This document shows, piece after piece, positions 11,687 to 19,176 of a DNA stretch of 64,000 nucleotides (position 1 is the first letter of the stretch; each line of letters begins with the position of its first letter). Below the pieces are notes generated by a model. That model ran no database searches, was not told where the DNA came from, and saw only the letters and a program-made list of their open reading frames with translations. Source of the DNA: Halobium salinum (GTDB lineage: Archaea > Halobacteriota > Halobacteria > Halobacteriales > Haloferacaceae); the NCBI RefSeq assembly GCF_026586625.1, contig NZ_JAODIW010000008.1, forward strand, positions 839,793 through 903,792, read 5' to 3'. Position numbers and translations under genes: made by a program.

Positions 11687-13198
11687 TTACAGCCCGTACA
11701 ACGCCCCGAACTTCTCGTCGACGTAATCGAGGAAGTAGTCGGCCGTGAGCGGTTCGCCCGTCGCCACCTCGACGAGCTCGTCGGTCCGGTAGCGCTGGCC
11801 GTGGCGGTGGACGTGTTCGGTCATCCACTCCGCGATGGGTTCGTACTCCCCCTCCCGGACGAGTCCGTCCACGTCCAGGTCCTCCCTGACTGCGGCGTCG
11901 AGCTGGGCGGCGAGCACGCTGCCGACCGTGTAGTTCTGGAAGCTCGCGAAGCCGGTCGACCAGTGGATGTCCTGCAGACATCCTTCGGCGTCGGTGTCGG
12001 GGACGACGCCGAGGTACTCCTCCATCTTCCCGTTCCACAGCTCGGGGATGTCGTCGGCGTCGACCTCGCCGGCGACGAACGCGCTGTCGATTTCGGTCCG
12101 GAGGATGATGTGGAGGTGGTAGGTGAGCTCGTCCGCTTCGACGCGAATCAGGTTCTCGGGGTAGATGCGGTTCACCGCGGCGTACGCCTCGTCGACGGTG
12201 ACGTCGTCGACGCCGTCGAGATGCTCTTTGAGCGTCGGCAGGAACCGTTCCCAGAAGGGTCGCGAGCGACCCACGTGGTTCTCCCAAAATCGGGACTGTG
12301 ACTCGTGGATGCGCCCCACCGACTGCCCCAGCGGGCTCCCGTAGTGCTCCTGAGGGAGCCCGAGCTGGTAGCTCGCGTGGCCGAACTCGTGTATCGTCGC
12401 CGTCAGCGCGTCGAGCGGGTCGTCGGGCGTGAACCGCGTCGTCACGCGCGCGTCGAACTGGTTGCCAGCCATGAACGGGTGGGGCGCGGTGTCGAGCCGA
12501 CCTCTGGAGCGGTCGTAGCCGAGTTCGTCGAGCGCCGCCTCACAGAGCGCGCGCTGGTCGGCCTCGGGGAACTCCCCCGCGAACGGTCGCGGGAGGTCGT
12601 CGCCTCGAGCCTCGATGTCGGCGATGAGCGGCACCAGCTTCTCGCGCAGGCGCTCGAACACGCGTTCGACCGTCGACAGCGGCAGGTCGGGGTCGGTCCC
12701 CTCGTACATCACCTCGTAGGGCGCCTTCCCGGGGTCGATGTGCTCGGCGCGCTCGACGTGGAGTTCGCGTAGCTCCTCCAGCGTGGGCGCGAACGACGCG
12801 AAGTCGTCCTCGGCCTTCGCGTCCTGCCACGTGCGCTGAGAGGCTGTCTGGGCCTCGGTCAGCTCCTCGACCAGCTCGCTCGGCACGTCGACCGCGTGGT
12901 CATACTCCCGTCGAATCTCCCGGACGACCGCCGTCCGCTCGTCGTCCAACTCGCTCGACTCGAGCGTCGAGAGGAGTTCGCCCGTGCGCTCGTCCGTCAG
13001 GTGGTCGTGCCGCGAGGCGAAGAGCGCCGAGAGCTGTTTCCCGCGGGCGGGCGAGCCGCCCTCGGGCATCATCGTCTGCTGGTCCCAACTCAACACCAGC
13101 GCACCCTGCGCGAGGTTCGACACGCGCGCGAAGCGGTCGGTGAGCTCGTCGTAGGCGGCGTCCGGCTCCGGAGCGGATTCAGATGAATCGATTGACAC
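11687..13198 (-). CDS. Metallocarboxypeptidase, peptidase family M32 (Taq type)
   Basis: The 503-residue cytoplasmic enzyme removes C-terminal amino acids. It has the family length and the zinc motif HEFGH (His270, Glu271, His274), followed by the family landmarks GLPQEHYGSPLGQSVGRIHESQSRFWEN (seen in two parts) and the late IHWSTGFASFQNYTVGS region. The N-terminus carries the helical ESFQQTM-like pattern (VLSWDQQTMMPEGG). It is a single-gene unit convergent with the preceding small gene. Confidence 0.95.
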   Translation of the reverse strand: MSIDSSESAPEPDAAYDELTDRFARVSNLAQGALVLSWDQQTMMPEGGSPARGKQLSALFASRHDHLTDERTGELLSTLESSELDDERTAVVREIRREYDHAVDVPSELVEELTEAQTASQRTWQDAKAEDDFASFAPTLEELRELHVERAEHIDPGKAPYEVMYEGTDPDLPLSTVERVFERLREKLVPLIADIEARGDDLPRPFAGEFPEADQRALCEAALDELGYDRSRGRLDTAPHPFMAGNQFDARVTTRFTPDDPLDALTATIHEFGHASYQLGLPQEHYGSPLGQSVGRIHESQSRFWENHVGRSRPFWERFLPTLKEHLDGVDDVTVDEAYAAVNRIYPENLIRVEADELTYHLHIILRTEIDSAFVAGEVDADDIPELWNGKMEEYLGVVPDTDAEGCLQDIHWSTGFASFQNYTVGSVLAAQLDAAVREDLDVDGLVREGEYEPIAEWMTEHVHRHGQRYRTDELVEVATGEPLTADYFLDYVDEKFGALYGL

Positions 13199-13290: not shown

Positions 13291-13307
13291 CCTTAAGTTA
13301 AATTTTT
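13291..13307 (+). promoter_or_regulatory. A+T-rich promoter of the 43-residue membrane peptide gene
   Basis: The stretch ccttaagttaaattttt is the most TATA-like sequence in this spacer. It predicts a transcription start at about 13323-13330, only 8-15 bases before the ATG of the small gene at 13338. Confidence 0.5.
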
Positions 13308-13337: not shown

Positions 13338-13469
13338 ATGGCACAGAAGATGTCCGAGTTCCTCCGGGAGCACCCGAAGTTCATGGGCGCACTATTCACG
13401 AGTATCATGCTGCTGTCGCAGGCGGGGGCGGTCGCGGCGAACAACTCGGTTACGATTGGCGGGCCGTAA
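13338..13469 (+). CDS. DUF7503-like 43-residue membrane peptide
   Basis: The peptide reads MAQKMSEFLREHPKFMG, then a hydrophobic helix of about 18 residues (ALFTSIMLLSQAGAVAA) and a short polar tail ending in GGP. This matches my recollection of the haloarchaeal DUF7503 pattern: a charged EHPK segment, one membrane helix or signal-like segment, and a conserved glycine-proline end. It could be membrane anchored or processed after AVAA. The last 20 bases overlap the end of the CHAT gene on the other strand. An out-of-frame ATG 11 bases upstream is not expected to be used. Confidence 0.75.
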   Translation: MAQKMSEFLREHPKFMGALFTSIMLLSQAGAVAANNSVTIGGP

Positions 13470-15642
13470 GCAAAGAGTCAATATCCAGTTCGTCAGACCA
13501 GTAGAGCGAATTCTCGTATCGAACCGGAGTGAGTTCTAACTGGAAGAACTCTCGCAGTTCATCAAAACCCAAGGAGAACGGGCCTGCACTCCCTAAGTAA
13601 TACTGAGAGACATCATCGAGCAACGGGCTCGAGATTGCGCCCAGACCGCGTGTTTCGGAGGGGTAGTAGTCGATACCCACCGTCACCGACTCGTCGTCCG
13701 AAACGGACTCAATTCTGGTGAGTACTGGCGCACCACTGTCGGGGTGGCACAGTGTCATTCCACCGCTTCCGAGAATCGTGTACCGGTACGCCGTCATCAG
13801 TTGGTCTCTGATAATCGACAACGAGGACCGGAGGGTGAACCCGCAGTTCAGCAGGCGTGCGATGGTCCGCCCGAACTCCGTCGCCAGCGTGTTCTCGACC
13901 TCCGCGAGCGTCACCACGCCGGCGTAGCTCCCGCGGTCGATGAGCGCCTGCCCCTGCTCGTAGGACCGACAGGCGTTCAGCAGGAACGCGTCGGCGCCGG
14001 CCTCGAACTCGGTCGCGGTCACGTCGAGGTGGCCGTCAGAACACTGCATCCCGCGCTCGTCGACGTGGCCGATGTAGTGCAGGAAGTCGGTGTCGGTCTC
14101 GAGCACCTGCACGAGTTGGTCGCGGGTGAGGTCGTAGTGGGCCTCGATGTCGAAGGTCAGCAGGTCCCGGAGTCCGTAGAGGTCGGCCACCACGTCCTCC
14201 TCGCGCATCTGCTCGTCGTTGCAGACGACGGTGACGCCGATGCTACTGCGCTGTTTGGGCTCCCGCTCGATTCGCCGACGGTAGGACTGCGCCGTCGCCT
14301 TGTTCGCGCCGAGCGGGTAGCCGTCGCCGACCCAGGCGTGCTCGACGGTGTCGGTCGGGTCCGGGCTGACGATGTTCGAGTGCGTCTCCTCCGAGGAACT
14401 GTCCGCACCGCGGACCAACCCGCTCGTCCCGGCGCTCCGGAAGAAGTCGGTTACCGCCTGGGGTTCGGCGGCGGCCGCCTCCGGCGCCTCGTGGCGGGGA
14501 CACCGGACGAGCGAGAGGTCGTTGGCGACGAACGGGAGCATCTCGACGTTCTCCGCGGTCGGGTCGATGTCGGTCGTCAGACTCCAGTTCGGGAGGTGCG
14601 CTTCGAGCTCCGCGAACGGCACGTCGAGGTACGCCCGCAGGCGGGCCGAGAAGGGGAGGTCGTACAGCCGACCGAAGTCGAGGTCGACCGACGACTCGAC
14701 CGGCCCCCGCTCGTGGAGGTCGACCGGGTACAACCCCTCCGTGCGCGTCAGACAGTCGAGGAAGAACGTCTGTCTGAGCGTCCGCGCCACGCCGCGTTCG
14801 AGCGGCGACGGTTCCCTCATCGCGTCGACCGACCCCGGCGCGGGGACCGACAGCGAGTGGCTCCACCCGTCTCCGGCCAACCGCGGCGTCTCGCCCGGCA
14901 CCACGTCGGCCCCGAGGTAGTACGCGAGCGGCGCGACGGCGAACACGGCGCGTCGCTCGGGCGGGACGACGACCGAGACGCTCGTCTGTGGGCGCTCGAG
15001 GAACGACGGCGCCGAGAACGTCTCGCCGAGTTCGAACAGCGGCGGGTGGCCTCGGAGCGTCGGGAACGACCGCTCGGGCGACGCCGTGGTCAGCGCCGAC
15101 CCCAGCGTCGACACCGCCCGCATCAGCGTCTCCGGGTCGCCGGTCGTCGTCACCGTCCCGGCCGGGCGCTCGTGGAACGACCGGACGCCGACCCGAACCG
15201 TGGTCGTCTCGCCGAAGTCGAGGACGGTGTCGGTCCCCGCGGAGCGGACCGCGAGCGACCCCTCGCCGGCCACGTACAGCTTCACGGGCGCCGTGGTCAC
15301 CTCCACGTCGTACTCGCCGGCCGGGAGCGACACCGCCTCGCGGTTGTCGGAGCGGGCGACGGGGACGCCCGTCGCGTCACGGACGATGGTCGCGGCGATC
15401 TTCGGAAGCGTGAGCGTCCGGGTCTCGACGGCGAAGGCGACGTCCACCGGGAACCGAAGCGCGTCCCCGTCCGTGGGTCGCGGCCTCGCCGTCGCGTCGG
15501 CGAACAGGTCGAAGCGCGCGTTCTCGATGTCGTCGACGATTCGGACGCCGGTCCGCCCCTCGCGTCGGTCCGGAGCCGGTCCACCGGCCGGAGCGTCGGG
15601 CACGGCCTCGAACGGGAGGTAGCGCAACGGCGCCCGGCTCAT
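13450..15642 (-). CDS. CHAT-domain (caspase-like) cysteine protease
   Basis: The 730-residue protein has a C-terminal CHAT domain. The catalytic histidine is His526 (HYIGHVDERG) and the catalytic cysteine Cys558 (LLNACRSYEQG), with the usual following GSYAGVVTLAEVENTLATEF segment; both are intact, so it is likely active. The first 350 residues look like beta-rich unknown domains and there is no TPR. The ATG overlaps the TGA of the upstream DUF7504-like gene by four bases (ATGA), indicating translational coupling. CHAT proteases act in defence and programmed-death circuits in several bacteria; the role here is unknown. Confidence 0.85.
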   Translation of the reverse strand: MSRAPLRYLPFEAVPDAPAGGPAPDRREGRTGVRIVDDIENARFDLFADATARPRPTDGDALRFPVDVAFAVETRTLTLPKIAATIVRDATGVPVARSDNREAVSLPAGEYDVEVTTAPVKLYVAGEGSLAVRSAGTDTVLDFGETTTVRVGVRSFHERPAGTVTTTGDPETLMRAVSTLGSALTTASPERSFPTLRGHPPLFELGETFSAPSFLERPQTSVSVVVPPERRAVFAVAPLAYYLGADVVPGETPRLAGDGWSHSLSVPAPGSVDAMREPSPLERGVARTLRQTFFLDCLTRTEGLYPVDLHERGPVESSVDLDFGRLYDLPFSARLRAYLDVPFAELEAHLPNWSLTTDIDPTAENVEMLPFVANDLSLVRCPRHEAPEAAAAEPQAVTDFFRSAGTSGLVRGADSSSEETHSNIVSPDPTDTVEHAWVGDGYPLGANKATAQSYRRRIEREPKQRSSIGVTVVCNDEQMREEDVVADLYGLRDLLTFDIEAHYDLTRDQLVQVLETDTDFLHYIGHVDERGMQCSDGHLDVTATEFEAGADAFLLNACRSYEQGQALIDRGSYAGVVTLAEVENTLATEFGRTIARLLNCGFTLRSSLSIIRDQLMTAYRYTILGSGGMTLCHPDSGAPVLTRIESVSDDESVTVGIDYYPSETRGLGAISSPLLDDVSQYYLGSAGPFSLGFDELREFFQLELTPVRYENSLYWSDELDIDSLLTARQS

Positions 15643-16499
15643 ATCCGCACCCACTCCGTCGCCCCGTGCTCCGGGAGGTGCCACCGCTGCTCGGGGCCGA
15701 GAGTCGCCCGGCGACGGAGTTCGATTCGAGCGTCGAACAGGGGGGCGACCGTCGCCACCCGCTCGTCGTCGTCCGGGACCGGACAGTGGACGTGACCGAG
15801 GCCGCGGACGCCGCGGACGGTCGCCGTCAGGAGTCGGAGAAACCGAATCGTCCCGGTCGCCTCGCTCGTCCCGACCCCGTCTGACTCGTCGACCGCGCCG
15901 GTCGTGTCCGTCATGTCGACGCCACCGGGGCCCCCAAACGGGGCGAACGACCCGAGCGAGTCGACACAGAGGCGGAGTTCCCCGCGCGTCAGGCCGGCGT
16001 GGTCGACCGCGGCGAGTTCGTCGAACACCGCCTCCGACAGCGACCGGAGGGGAGCGGTCGAACCGGCCTCGCCGGTCCGCTCGCCGTCGGTCCCGGAGCG
16101 CCGGACCGTCGACTCGGAGTCCGTGTCGCCGGCGGTGGACCGACCGCCCGTCGTCTCCGTCTTCCCCGTCTTCCCCGTCGTCTCCGTCTTCCCCCTCGCC
16201 TCCGCCTTTCCCGTCGCTCGCCGGAGGTCCTCGGAGTCGCGTCGGTCGACGACCCGGACCGCCTCGCCGTCCGGAGCGACGCCCGCCGGGAGATGCGTCT
16301 CGACCGCCTCGGCATCGGGCGCGGTGAGGATGACCACGCGCGTTCGGGCCTGCAGCGGGTCGCCGAGGAGTCGGCGAGTGGCCTCCGCGCGGGCGCGGGC
16401 GTCCACGTCACCGGTGACGAGGAGGACACAGCCGTCGCGCTTCAGTCGGCGCAGACGGGCGGCGAGCGCGGCCCCCTCGTCGCCTCCGGACACACCCAT
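15639..16499 (-). CDS. DUF7504-like protein coupled to the CHAT protease
   Basis: The 286-residue protein has a RecA-like beginning: a strand (CVLLVTGDV), a charged helix and a second strand (RVVILTAPDA), but no Walker A lysine. A low-complexity linker (GKTETTGKTGKTETTG) follows, then a C-terminal part with VDSLGSFAPF and FLRLLTATVRGVRGLGHVHCPV. This resembles haloarchaeal DUF7504/HTR-like proteins, from memory. The start is the eighth codon of the open frame because BRE (cgaaa) and TATA (gtttaat) elements at 16526-16538 predict transcription from about 16502; the earlier ATG at 16520 would lie upstream of it. Confidence 0.65.
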   Translation of the reverse strand: MGVSGGDEGAALAARLRRLKRDGCVLLVTGDVDARARAEATRRLLGDPLQARTRVVILTAPDAEAVETHLPAGVAPDGEAVRVVDRRDSEDLRRATGKAEARGKTETTGKTGKTETTGGRSTAGDTDSESTVRRSGTDGERTGEAGSTAPLRSLSEAVFDELAAVDHAGLTRGELRLCVDSLGSFAPFGGPGGVDMTDTTGAVDESDGVGTSEATGTIRFLRLLTATVRGVRGLGHVHCPVPDDDERVATVAPLFDARIELRRRATLGPEQRWHLPEHGATEWVRI

Positions 16500-16666: not shown

Positions 16667-17623
16667 ATGACCACGCTCGGAAGCGCGAGCGCGGCCCCCG
16701 GCGAGGTCGACTTCGGCCGGCTGGAGGTGGGCGAGTCCAGGGACGGGAGCGCCGTCGGCCTGCCGGTCGCCGTCGTCAACGGGGCGCGCGACGGGAAGAC
16801 GCTCTACGTGCAGGCCGCGAGCGACGGCGACGAACTCAACGGCGTCGGCGTCGTCAACCGTGTCGTCCCCCAGCTCGACCCCGCGGAGATATCCGGCACG
16901 GTGCTCGTCGTCGGCATCGTCAACTACCACGCCTTCCAGGTCGCGGAACACCGCAACCCCATCGACGACACGAAGATGAACCGGGCGTACCCCGGCGACG
17001 CGAGCGGCACCTCGAGCGAGCGCATCGCCCACGCCACCTTCGAGGCCGCGACCCGCGCCGACCTGATTCTCGACCTCCACCAGGGTTCTACCTCTCGAAT
17101 GATCGACGAGGTCCGCGTGCGCTGTGGCACCCGCCACCGCCTCCACCGGGAGTGTCTCGAACTCGCCAAGACGTTCGGCTGCGGCTACGTCCTCGACCAG
17201 AAGGGGCCCGACGGCCAACTCGCCCGCGCCGGCCCCGACGAGGGGATTCCGACGGTCGACCCCGAACTCGGCGGCGCCGTCGGCTGGGACCGGGAGAGCA
17301 TCCGGAAGGGCGTCGACGGCGTCTTCAACGTCCTTCGAGGGTACGGCTTCCTCGACGGCGGGGTCGACGCCGAACCCCAGACCCGCGCCACCGGATTCGA
17401 CCAGTACGGCGCGCCGCGCGGCGGCGTCGTCCGTTTCGAGAAGGAACTCGGCGACGAGGTCCGCGCGGGCGACACCCTCTATCGCATCACCGACGTGTTC
17501 GGCACGACGAAGGCGCGCGTCACCGCCGACAACGACGGCCTCTTCTGGCGCGAGCGGCGCCTCCCGCAGGTCGCCACCGGCGAGTACGTCTGCTCGGTCG
17601 GCACCGGCATCGACACGTACTGA
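16667..17623 (+). CDS. Succinylglutamate desuccinylase/aspartoacylase-family zinc hydrolase
   Basis: The 318-residue protein shows the family order: a strand leading to SDGDELNG (52-59), MNRAYPG (104-110), LDLHQG (136-141) and a C-terminal beta domain. Family enzymes hydrolyse N-acyl amino acids with zinc held by His, Glu and His. Here Glu56 and His138 are present but the first histidine is Asp53. It may be a variant ligand set. The start is preceded by ggtcgggta with little leader. The natural substrate is unknown. Confidence 0.8.
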   Translation: MTTLGSASAAPGEVDFGRLEVGESRDGSAVGLPVAVVNGARDGKTLYVQAASDGDELNGVGVVNRVVPQLDPAEISGTVLVVGIVNYHAFQVAEHRNPIDDTKMNRAYPGDASGTSSERIAHATFEAATRADLILDLHQGSTSRMIDEVRVRCGTRHRLHRECLELAKTFGCGYVLDQKGPDGQLARAGPDEGIPTVDPELGGAVGWDRESIRKGVDGVFNVLRGYGFLDGGVDAEPQTRATGFDQYGAPRGGVVRFEKELGDEVRAGDTLYRITDVFGTTKARVTADNDGLFWRERRLPQVATGEYVCSVGTGIDTY

Positions 17624-18066: not shown

Positions 18067-19176
18067 ATGCCCGCGAGTCTCGTCTGTCCCGACTGTGGCG
18101 CCACCTACGACGACCGCTGGCGCTGTTCCTGTGGTGCCCCGCTCGAGTTCGCCGACCCGCCACGACCCGCCCCGACCGGCGAGGAAGGCTCGGCGTCGGC
18201 TCCCGGCCCCTTCGACGCCCGCGCGGGGCTCTGGTCGTTCGATGCGTTTCTCCCGGTCGGCGCCGACCCGGCCGACCGCGTCACGCTCGGCGAGGGGCTG
18301 ACCCCGCTCGTCGACGCCCCGGACTGGGACGCGACGTTCAAACTGGAGTACGTCTTCCCGACGGGGAGTTTCAAGGACCGCGGCGCGACGACGACGCTCA
18401 CGCGGGCGAGCGAACTCGGCGTGGAGCGCGTCGTCGAAGACTCCTCCGGCAACGCCGGCGCAGCGGTCGCGACCTACGCCGCACGGGCCGGTATCGACGC
18501 CGAGATATACGTCCCCGCGGGGGTCAAGGACTCGAAGCTCCGGGCCATCGAACGCGCCGGGGCGACACCCGTCCGCGTCGAGGGGTCCCGCGAGGACGTG
18601 ACCGACGCCTGCCTCGACGCCGTCCGCGAGGGCGATGCGTGGTACGCCAGCCACGCGTGGAACCCCGCGTTCTTCGCCGGAACGGCGACGGTCGCCTACG
18701 AGGTCGCCCTCCAGCGGGACTGGTCCGTCCCGGACGCGGTCGTCACGCCGCTCGGCCACGGGACGCTCTTCCTCGGCGCCTATCGCGGGTTCCGCGCGCT
18801 GTACGAGGCGGGGTGGACCGACTCGATGCCGAGGCTGCTCGGCGCGCAGGCGGCGGGGTACGCCCCCATCGCGGCCGAACTCCACGGCGAGGCGGCCGCC
18901 GACGGCGACAACGACGCCGCCGACGGCATCCGGATTCGCGACCCGGTCCAGCGGGAGGCGATTCTGGAGGCGGTCGAGGACACCGACGGCGACGCAATCG
19001 CCCTCGGGAGCCACGCAGTGGAGGCCGAACTCGACCGGCTCCACCGGGCGGGGTTCTACACCGAACCGACCTGTGCGGTCGCGCCGGCGGCGCTCCGCGA
19101 GTACCGCGAGCGCGGCGTGCTCGACGAGTCGGACGACGTGGTCGTCCCGCTCACGGGGAGCGGGCTGAAGGGGTAG
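18067..19176 (+). CDS. thrC: Threonine synthase-like PLP enzyme
   Basis: The enzyme family converts O-phosphohomoserine to threonine with pyridoxal phosphate. The 369-residue protein opens with a zinc-ribbon-like segment (CPDCGATY and CSCG). The PLP lysine lies in PTGSFKDRGA, the phosphate-contacting SSGNAGAAVA follows, and the C-terminal glycine loop is GSGLKG. The start is at the zinc ribbon; the long in-frame upstream stretch is histidine/threonine-rich and non-family. Haloarchaea often have several thrC paralogues, so it may be a divergent member. Confidence 0.8.
   Translation: MPASLVCPDCGATYDDRWRCSCGAPLEFADPPRPAPTGEEGSASAPGPFDARAGLWSFDAFLPVGADPADRVTLGEGLTPLVDAPDWDATFKLEYVFPTGSFKDRGATTTLTRASELGVERVVEDSSGNAGAAVATYAARAGIDAEIYVPAGVKDSKLRAIERAGATPVRVEGSREDVTDACLDAVREGDAWYASHAWNPAFFAGTATVAYEVALQRDWSVPDAVVTPLGHGTLFLGAYRGFRALYEAGWTDSMPRLLGAQAAGYAPIAAELHGEAAADGDNDAADGIRIRDPVQREAILEAVEDTDGDAIALGSHAVEAELDRLHRAGFYTEPTCAVAPAALREYRERGVLDESDDVVVPLTGSGLKG

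Follow-up and report, generated by a model that had tools for sequence, protein, structure and literature searches.

A convergent CHAT protease-peptide gene pair in haloarchaea with a shared hypervariable block and a possible role in peptide recognition

Why should the gene of a 43-residue peptide run tail to tail into the gene of a caspase-like protease, and what might the two products have to do with each other? The locus that raises this question lies in a 64,000-nucleotide stretch of the Halobium salinum genome (the window). A sequence-only reading of it had described a CHAT protease gene coupled to a DUF7504-like gene and opposed by a small membrane peptide, had judged the opposing layout to be selected rather than random, and had proposed the peptide as a substrate, sensor or membrane effector of the protease with the DUF7504 protein as a regulator.

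Gene layout and pairing across haloarchaea

The features of the locus are collected in Table 1. The peptide scored 65.8 bits against PF24335 and the DUF7504 protein 123.3 bits against PF24336, the curated cut-off being 27 in each case. The bases ATGA at 15639-15642 served as both the DUF7504 stop and the CHAT start, as the sequence-only reading had it. The 20-nt overlap of the peptide gene with the CHAT gene (13450-13469), also part of that reading, was present in the window and was not conserved among homologs; some peptide-CHAT pairs overlapped and others stood more than 200 bp apart, and conserved gene overlap was rejected as a feature of the pair. The separate promoter claimed for the peptide was borne out by an AT-rich box kept in 104 loci. 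A second AT-rich stretch, at about -75 to -58 of the peptide genes in many loci, is a possible regulator site. No known RNA element was found at the locus with Rfam.

Table 1. Features of the CHAT-peptide locus, in window coordinates
Feature	Position	Strand	Basis
DUF7503 peptide precursor, 43 aa (MAQKMSEFLREHPKFMGALFTSIMLLSQAGAVAANNSVTIGGP)	13338..13469	+	PF24335, E 2.6e-18
Peptide leader: HPK, hydrophobic stretch, AVAA	13338..13439	+	Conserved, ungapped alignment of 102 homologs
Peptide tail, hypervariable, Gly-Pro end; predicted mature peptide NNSVTIGGP	13440..13466	+	
AT-rich promoter box of the peptide gene	13293..13307	+	AT 0.8-0.93 at most positions -42 to -27, 104 loci
CHAT-family caspase-fold protease gene, 730 aa, His526/Cys558	13450..15642	-	Foldseek and invariant catalytic pair
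CHAT gene 3' end, ~95 codons: hypervariable C-terminal domain, low GC3	13450..13740	-	
DUF7504 gene, optional partner	15639..16499	-	PF24336, E 1.9e-35

An AstE/AspA-like gene (window 16667-17623) and then a threonine synthase gene (ORF ending at 19176) adjoined CHAT in the window, and both also adjoined it at a Halorubrum locus (L049, 1674-3874), indicating an old chromosomal position. The left neighbour was an M32 (Taq-type) carboxypeptidase gene (window 11690-13198). This neighbour was seen in just one fetched locus besides the window and is therefore probably a coincidence; to our knowledge, M32 carboxypeptidases do not take off a C-terminal proline such as that of the GP tail.

Pairing was sampled in 97 haloarchaeal genomes, and convergence was counted within 300 bp. 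There were 105 DUF7503 matches in 80 of the genomes, and CHAT homologs were present in 86. Every genome with DUF7503 also held CHAT (80/80), and six genomes had CHAT without DUF7503. Of the 105 peptides, 103 were convergent with a CHAT homolog at a distance of 300 bp or less; 101 of these faced a listed CHAT, most of them no more than 125 bp away, and two faced weaker CHAT matches. Two peptides considered as orphans (G032 and G023-C5) were rejected as such, since CHAT adjoined each. One of the remaining two was convergent and 1 kb from CHAT, and the other lay on the same strand at 1.4 kb. Tail-to-tail orientation and short spacing were the properties kept among the pairs. These counts support a real, class-wide pairing of CHAT and peptide and a selected opposing layout, in agreement with the earlier judgement that the arrangement is not random. 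Of the haloarchaeal genomes sampled, about 85% (250/292) contained DUF7503, Haloferax volcanii being among them as a control match.

CHAT copies were carried by 25 haloarchaeal plasmids. No CHAT relative was found on IMG/VR contigs, and a virus-borne origin was rejected. Pairing outside the haloarchaea was rejected as well: a further family of this phylum had CHAT homologs with no convergent GP peptide, and in four genomes of that family the match to the homolog stopped where the C-terminal domain begins. One CHAT homolog outside the haloarchaea (L172) no longer had the His and Cys motifs of the catalytic pair. At another locus (L170, 2008-2297), one CHAT was faced by two DUF7503 peptides in tandem that shared the tail SNTSSISGP.

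The occurrence of the peptide only in genomes with CHAT, together with the plasmid copies, would fit a toxin-antitoxin-like pair, with the peptide as a small membrane toxin that CHAT neutralises or destroys via its C-terminus. However, six genomes keep CHAT alone, the peptide has its own promoter, and a pore toxin would not usually have a single tail for each CHAT and an unvarying GP end. We regard this explanation as very unlikely.

Haloarchaeal CHATs split into two large clades (A and B). Each of the 97 genomes held 1-15 copies of DUF7504. Of 40 paired loci sampled, 19 had it next to CHAT, in orientations that varied. It lay directly upstream of CHAT in the 12 named clade-A loci outside Halorubrum where it was recognised, and it was beside CHAT in none of the sampled Halorubrum loci. 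An essential role as partner was rejected in favor of that of an optional neighbour, and the third component of the sequence-only reading was not obligatory. Conserved adjacency and orientation held for CHAT with DUF7503 and failed for DUF7504, which was in every genome but did not constantly adjoin them. The AlphaFold model of DUF7504 (pLDDT 82) gave Foldseek matches to RecA, KaiC, FlaH and BcsE, and the window copy had no P-loop. The model points to a degenerate RecA/KaiC/FlaH/BcsE-like fold, and in some lineages the protein has probably been recruited as a partner for signalling or as a scaffold.

The protease fold and the peptide leader

The window CHAT protein alone had no match in a Pfam search (PF12770 none at E 1), and PF12770 was matched weakly by 10 of 18 CHAT homologs, with a best value of 3e-4. 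A PDB sequence search with the CHAT profile gave nothing useful. The AlphaFold model (mean pLDDT 69, higher in the catalytic region) matched RgpB gingipain, SAVED-CHAT 8tl0, separase and Csx29 in Foldseek with E values of 1e-5 to 4e-4 and a probability of 1.0, confirming at the level of the predicted structure a caspase-hemoglobinase fold (clan CD). The motifs H[YF][IV]GH and LN[AG]C were invariant in the aligned haloarchaeal homologs spanning the region. The 730-residue protein with His526 and Cys558 was present as first read, and its residue pair proved invariant among the aligned homologs; the gene product is a putative cytosolic caspase-fold protease. A WSDEL-like motif was conserved in the C-terminal domain, which remained alignable. 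In genomes of one family (f2), tandem CHAT pairs or triples (L118, L119, L122 and L128) had LNGC, not LNAC, and no detectable peptide.

The leaders of 102 non-identical peptides aligned free of gaps from 8 residues before HP[RK] to +22. HP[RK], with its basic residue ahead of the hydrophobic stretch, was found in 101 of the 102, a leader proline in all of them, and Gly+5 and Phe+8 in 101. At the putative cut, position -3 was Ala or Val in 101 peptides (Ser once) and position -1 was Ala or Gly in 102, showing that the signal-peptidase -3/-1 rule was satisfied in practically all; a helix breaker (Gly, Ala or Pro) preceded the cut. The 5-6 positions after it had an entropy of about 3 bits each, and 98 of the 102 peptides had a Gly-Pro end. 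From these residue patterns, the DUF7503 peptide looks like an export precursor and not a plain membrane helix. It would be cleaved by signal peptidase, and a cut at HP[RK] is possible. No importer was recognised in the locus. The earlier proposal of a substrate or membrane effector was modified accordingly, as the export-type leader and the co-varying tail described below point to recognition instead.

The leader is stricter than a plain signal peptide requires and may do more than direct export. This strictness counts in favor of a peptide that remains membrane-anchored as a single helix, on which CHAT would dock or which would serve CHAT as a guard or as a substrate, cleaved for instance behind HP[RK]. 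The pair would then form a switch for cell death or antiviral defence, and its variable ends would be the product of an arms race with viral inhibitors. The work of CHAT relatives in defence, namely Csx29 (PMC10028731) and SAVED-CHAT, speaks for it as well. However, the -3/-1 rule and the helix breaker suit a cleaved leader, and the charge pattern suggests an N-inside orientation, which would put the variable tail outside, away from the cytosolic protease. PADLOC models gave no match at E 1 for the peptide, CHAT or DUF7504 proteins, IMG/VR held no relative, and the same housekeeping genes flank the locus in Halobium salinum and Halorubrum. We regard a membrane-anchored partner as somewhat unlikely.

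A hypervariable block at the touching gene ends

One hypervariable block took in the final ~90 codons of CHAT together with the final ~8 of the peptide gene. In Halorubrum, the CHAT amino-acid difference rose from 0.03-0.13 across the catalytic region to 0.43-0.58 in the C-terminal ~90 residues; the 8 codons at the end of the peptide gene, GP excepted, varied as much, and the leader was nearly identical. Nucleotide identity in this genus went from ~0.90 in CHAT to ~0.5 in the last ~270 bp and the 8 peptide codons and back to 0.86-0.97 in the leader, with sharp boundaries at both sides. The C-terminal rise in CHAT was repeated in six genus-level groups and was weakest in one genus (g25) and in a tight Halorubrum subgroup. 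No comparable jump was seen in AstE, threonine synthase or other neighbour genes. The peptide-less CHATs of genus g25, the closest peptide-less group, had no jump, and the C-terminal regions of other peptide-less CHAT groups were moderately or broadly variable.

Four-fold divergence at the invariant Gly and Pro codons of the tail was 0.58-0.67, compared with 0.04-0.28 at leader Ala and Pro codons just upstream, the block value being inflated by relaxed codon bias. In the final 85 codons of CHAT, GC3 dropped from 0.83 to 0.575, and 107 of 113 loci had a lower value there; in the window CHAT, GC3 fell from about 0.95 to 0.55-0.72 toward the 3' end. AstE and threonine synthase beside CHAT had no C-terminal GC3 drop, nor did the C2 paralog in the Halobium salinum genome or the clade-B pairs. 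Diversifying selection was not demonstrable by dN/dS, which was about 0.2 in the tail, and positive selection was not demonstrated because the synonymous sites of the tail are saturated. No silent donor cassette with the 98-residue C-terminus was found in the Halobium salinum genome, where just two intact paralogs matched.

Tail distance was compared with CHAT C-terminal distance in partial Mantel tests from which core and leader distances had been removed. The partial r was 0.36 in Halorubrum (26 loci), 0.16 elsewhere (55 loci) and 0.21 for all loci together, with p=0.0005 in every case. Where the two loci of a pair had near-identical cores, the mean tail difference grew from 0.12 to 0.56 as the C-terminal difference grew, showing that tail and CHAT C-terminus are co-inherited. 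The core of locus L037 was 98% identical to that of L042; its C-terminus and tail were nearer to those of the L044 group, a pattern that the exchange of a cassette would leave. The co-variation could reflect molecular matching; it may also come from physical linkage alone.

Fast-evolving, weakly constrained gene ends around a shared terminator, with no role in recognition and with the pairing kept for transcript-level (antisense) regulation, would be consistent with the saturated synonymous change and low GC3 of the block and with tails of small, linker-like residues. However, the terminal GP hardly varies, the C-terminal domain of CHAT can still be aligned and keeps its WSDEL-like motif, and the block ends sharply at both sides and is absent from the neighbours and the g25 peptide-less paralogs. 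The range of spacing, with some pairs overlapping and others separated by over 200 bp, indicates that transcript overlap is not a constant feature. A variable block with no role in recognition appears quite improbable.

A candidate recognition module, known systems and a second peptide family

We assign a probability of about 0.45 to a two-gene cognate peptide-protease recognition module, in which the specificity ends are exchanged together and the caspase-fold protease is the receptor. Its observed basis is the pairing, the layout, the catalytic pair and fold, the signal-peptidase-type leader, the variable block and the co-variation. The conserved leader of the DUF7503 precursor would direct export, and signal peptidase would probably cut after AxA to release a ~9-residue peptide (here NNSVTIGGP) with a variable core and a Gly-Pro end. 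Following re-import or contact, the variable C-terminal domain of the cytosolic CHAT protease would recognise the matching tail by direct binding, and this recognition would either keep the protease off or turn it on. Cell death, kin or self recognition and a density response are candidate outputs. A single recombination event could swap both touching, specificity-determining gene ends, and the placement of both in one exchangeable stretch would explain why the tail-to-tail order is kept across the class. More tentatively, the pair may be a genetically encoded archaeal system of peptide communication or self-recognition in most haloarchaea, with a caspase-fold receptor and matched ends swapped between species as a cassette.

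In the staphylococcal agr system, polymorphism and the layout of the pherotype cassettes join peptide and receptor ends in a variable stretch. The polymorphism of ComQXP in Bacillus is likewise confined to a contiguous stretch joining the peptide and receptor ends (PMC4408185). The haloarchaeal pair resembles both in having a short variable-core precursor beside its candidate recogniser and a contiguous, co-varying block that joins the peptide end to the CHAT end, here the putative receptor. It differs from them in its caspase-fold candidate receptor, its convergent genes and its archaeal host. Neither a modifying enzyme nor a histidine kinase was found among the three module genes and the flanking gene on each side in the window.

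RRNPP systems (Rap-Phr, PlcR-PapR and arbitrium AimR-AimP) use a precursor of ~40 aa with an export leader and a short C-terminal peptide with a conserved end. DUF7503 appears similar in precursor length, in its export-type leader and in its short tail with a conserved end. However, no TPR or HTH receptor was found in the haloarchaeal module, CHAT had no match to a TPR receptor in Pfam or the structure search, and the genes are not co-directional. Csx29/Craspase and SAVED-CHAT have the protease fold and the His/Cys pair in common with the haloarchaeal CHAT, but the latter has a tiny leader peptide in place of a recognised CRISPR, SAVED or TPR partner and is mostly found at an old chromosomal locus.

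The literature search found no mention of DUF7503 or DUF7504, no work joining the CHAT domain with haloarchaea and no description of a CHAT-peptide module; the analysis suggests that the pair may be a system, not described before, that recognises peptides or self. In archaea, signalling by peptides is not an established phenomenon, and the module bears on that question; if our reading is true, a caspase-fold enzyme would be the recogniser in a polymorphic recognition system. A 2025 study of quorum sensing in Haloferax volcanii named just three previous cases from archaea; the signal was unknown in two, and in none was it given as a peptide (PMC12240190). The disk-forming quorum signal of H. 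volcanii resists proteinase K (PMC12240190), and for this reason no link to it as an output of the module is claimed. Caspase-type activity has been reported in H. volcanii with no known gene (PMC3615174); CHAT, being haloarchaeal and of caspase type, is at most a candidate source. Because DUF7503 occurs in about 85% of the sampled genomes, that of H. volcanii among them, both archaeal peptide signalling and the gene behind the caspase-like activity become testable.

A longer, Pfam-negative peptide faces some CHATs of clade B, among them one on contig C9 in the Halobium salinum genome. Three aligned peptides of this second family had invariant HPR, QGTVxA and C-terminal TGP, and a profile built from them was run on the 97 genomes. 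Seven of its eight matches at E<1e-6 were convergent with a mapped CHAT, and the eighth (G088) was not mapped; a weaker match (G026) was also convergent with CHAT. Many clade-B CHATs, including those of the Natrialba type, had no second-family peptide. Besides the locus in the window, the Halobium salinum genome contained a CHAT paired with a second-family peptide (L107, G000:C9:162557-164847) and a further CHAT-DUF7503 pair with the tail GFATTCGGP (L108, G000:C2:230866-233258), so that three different tails coexist in one genome.
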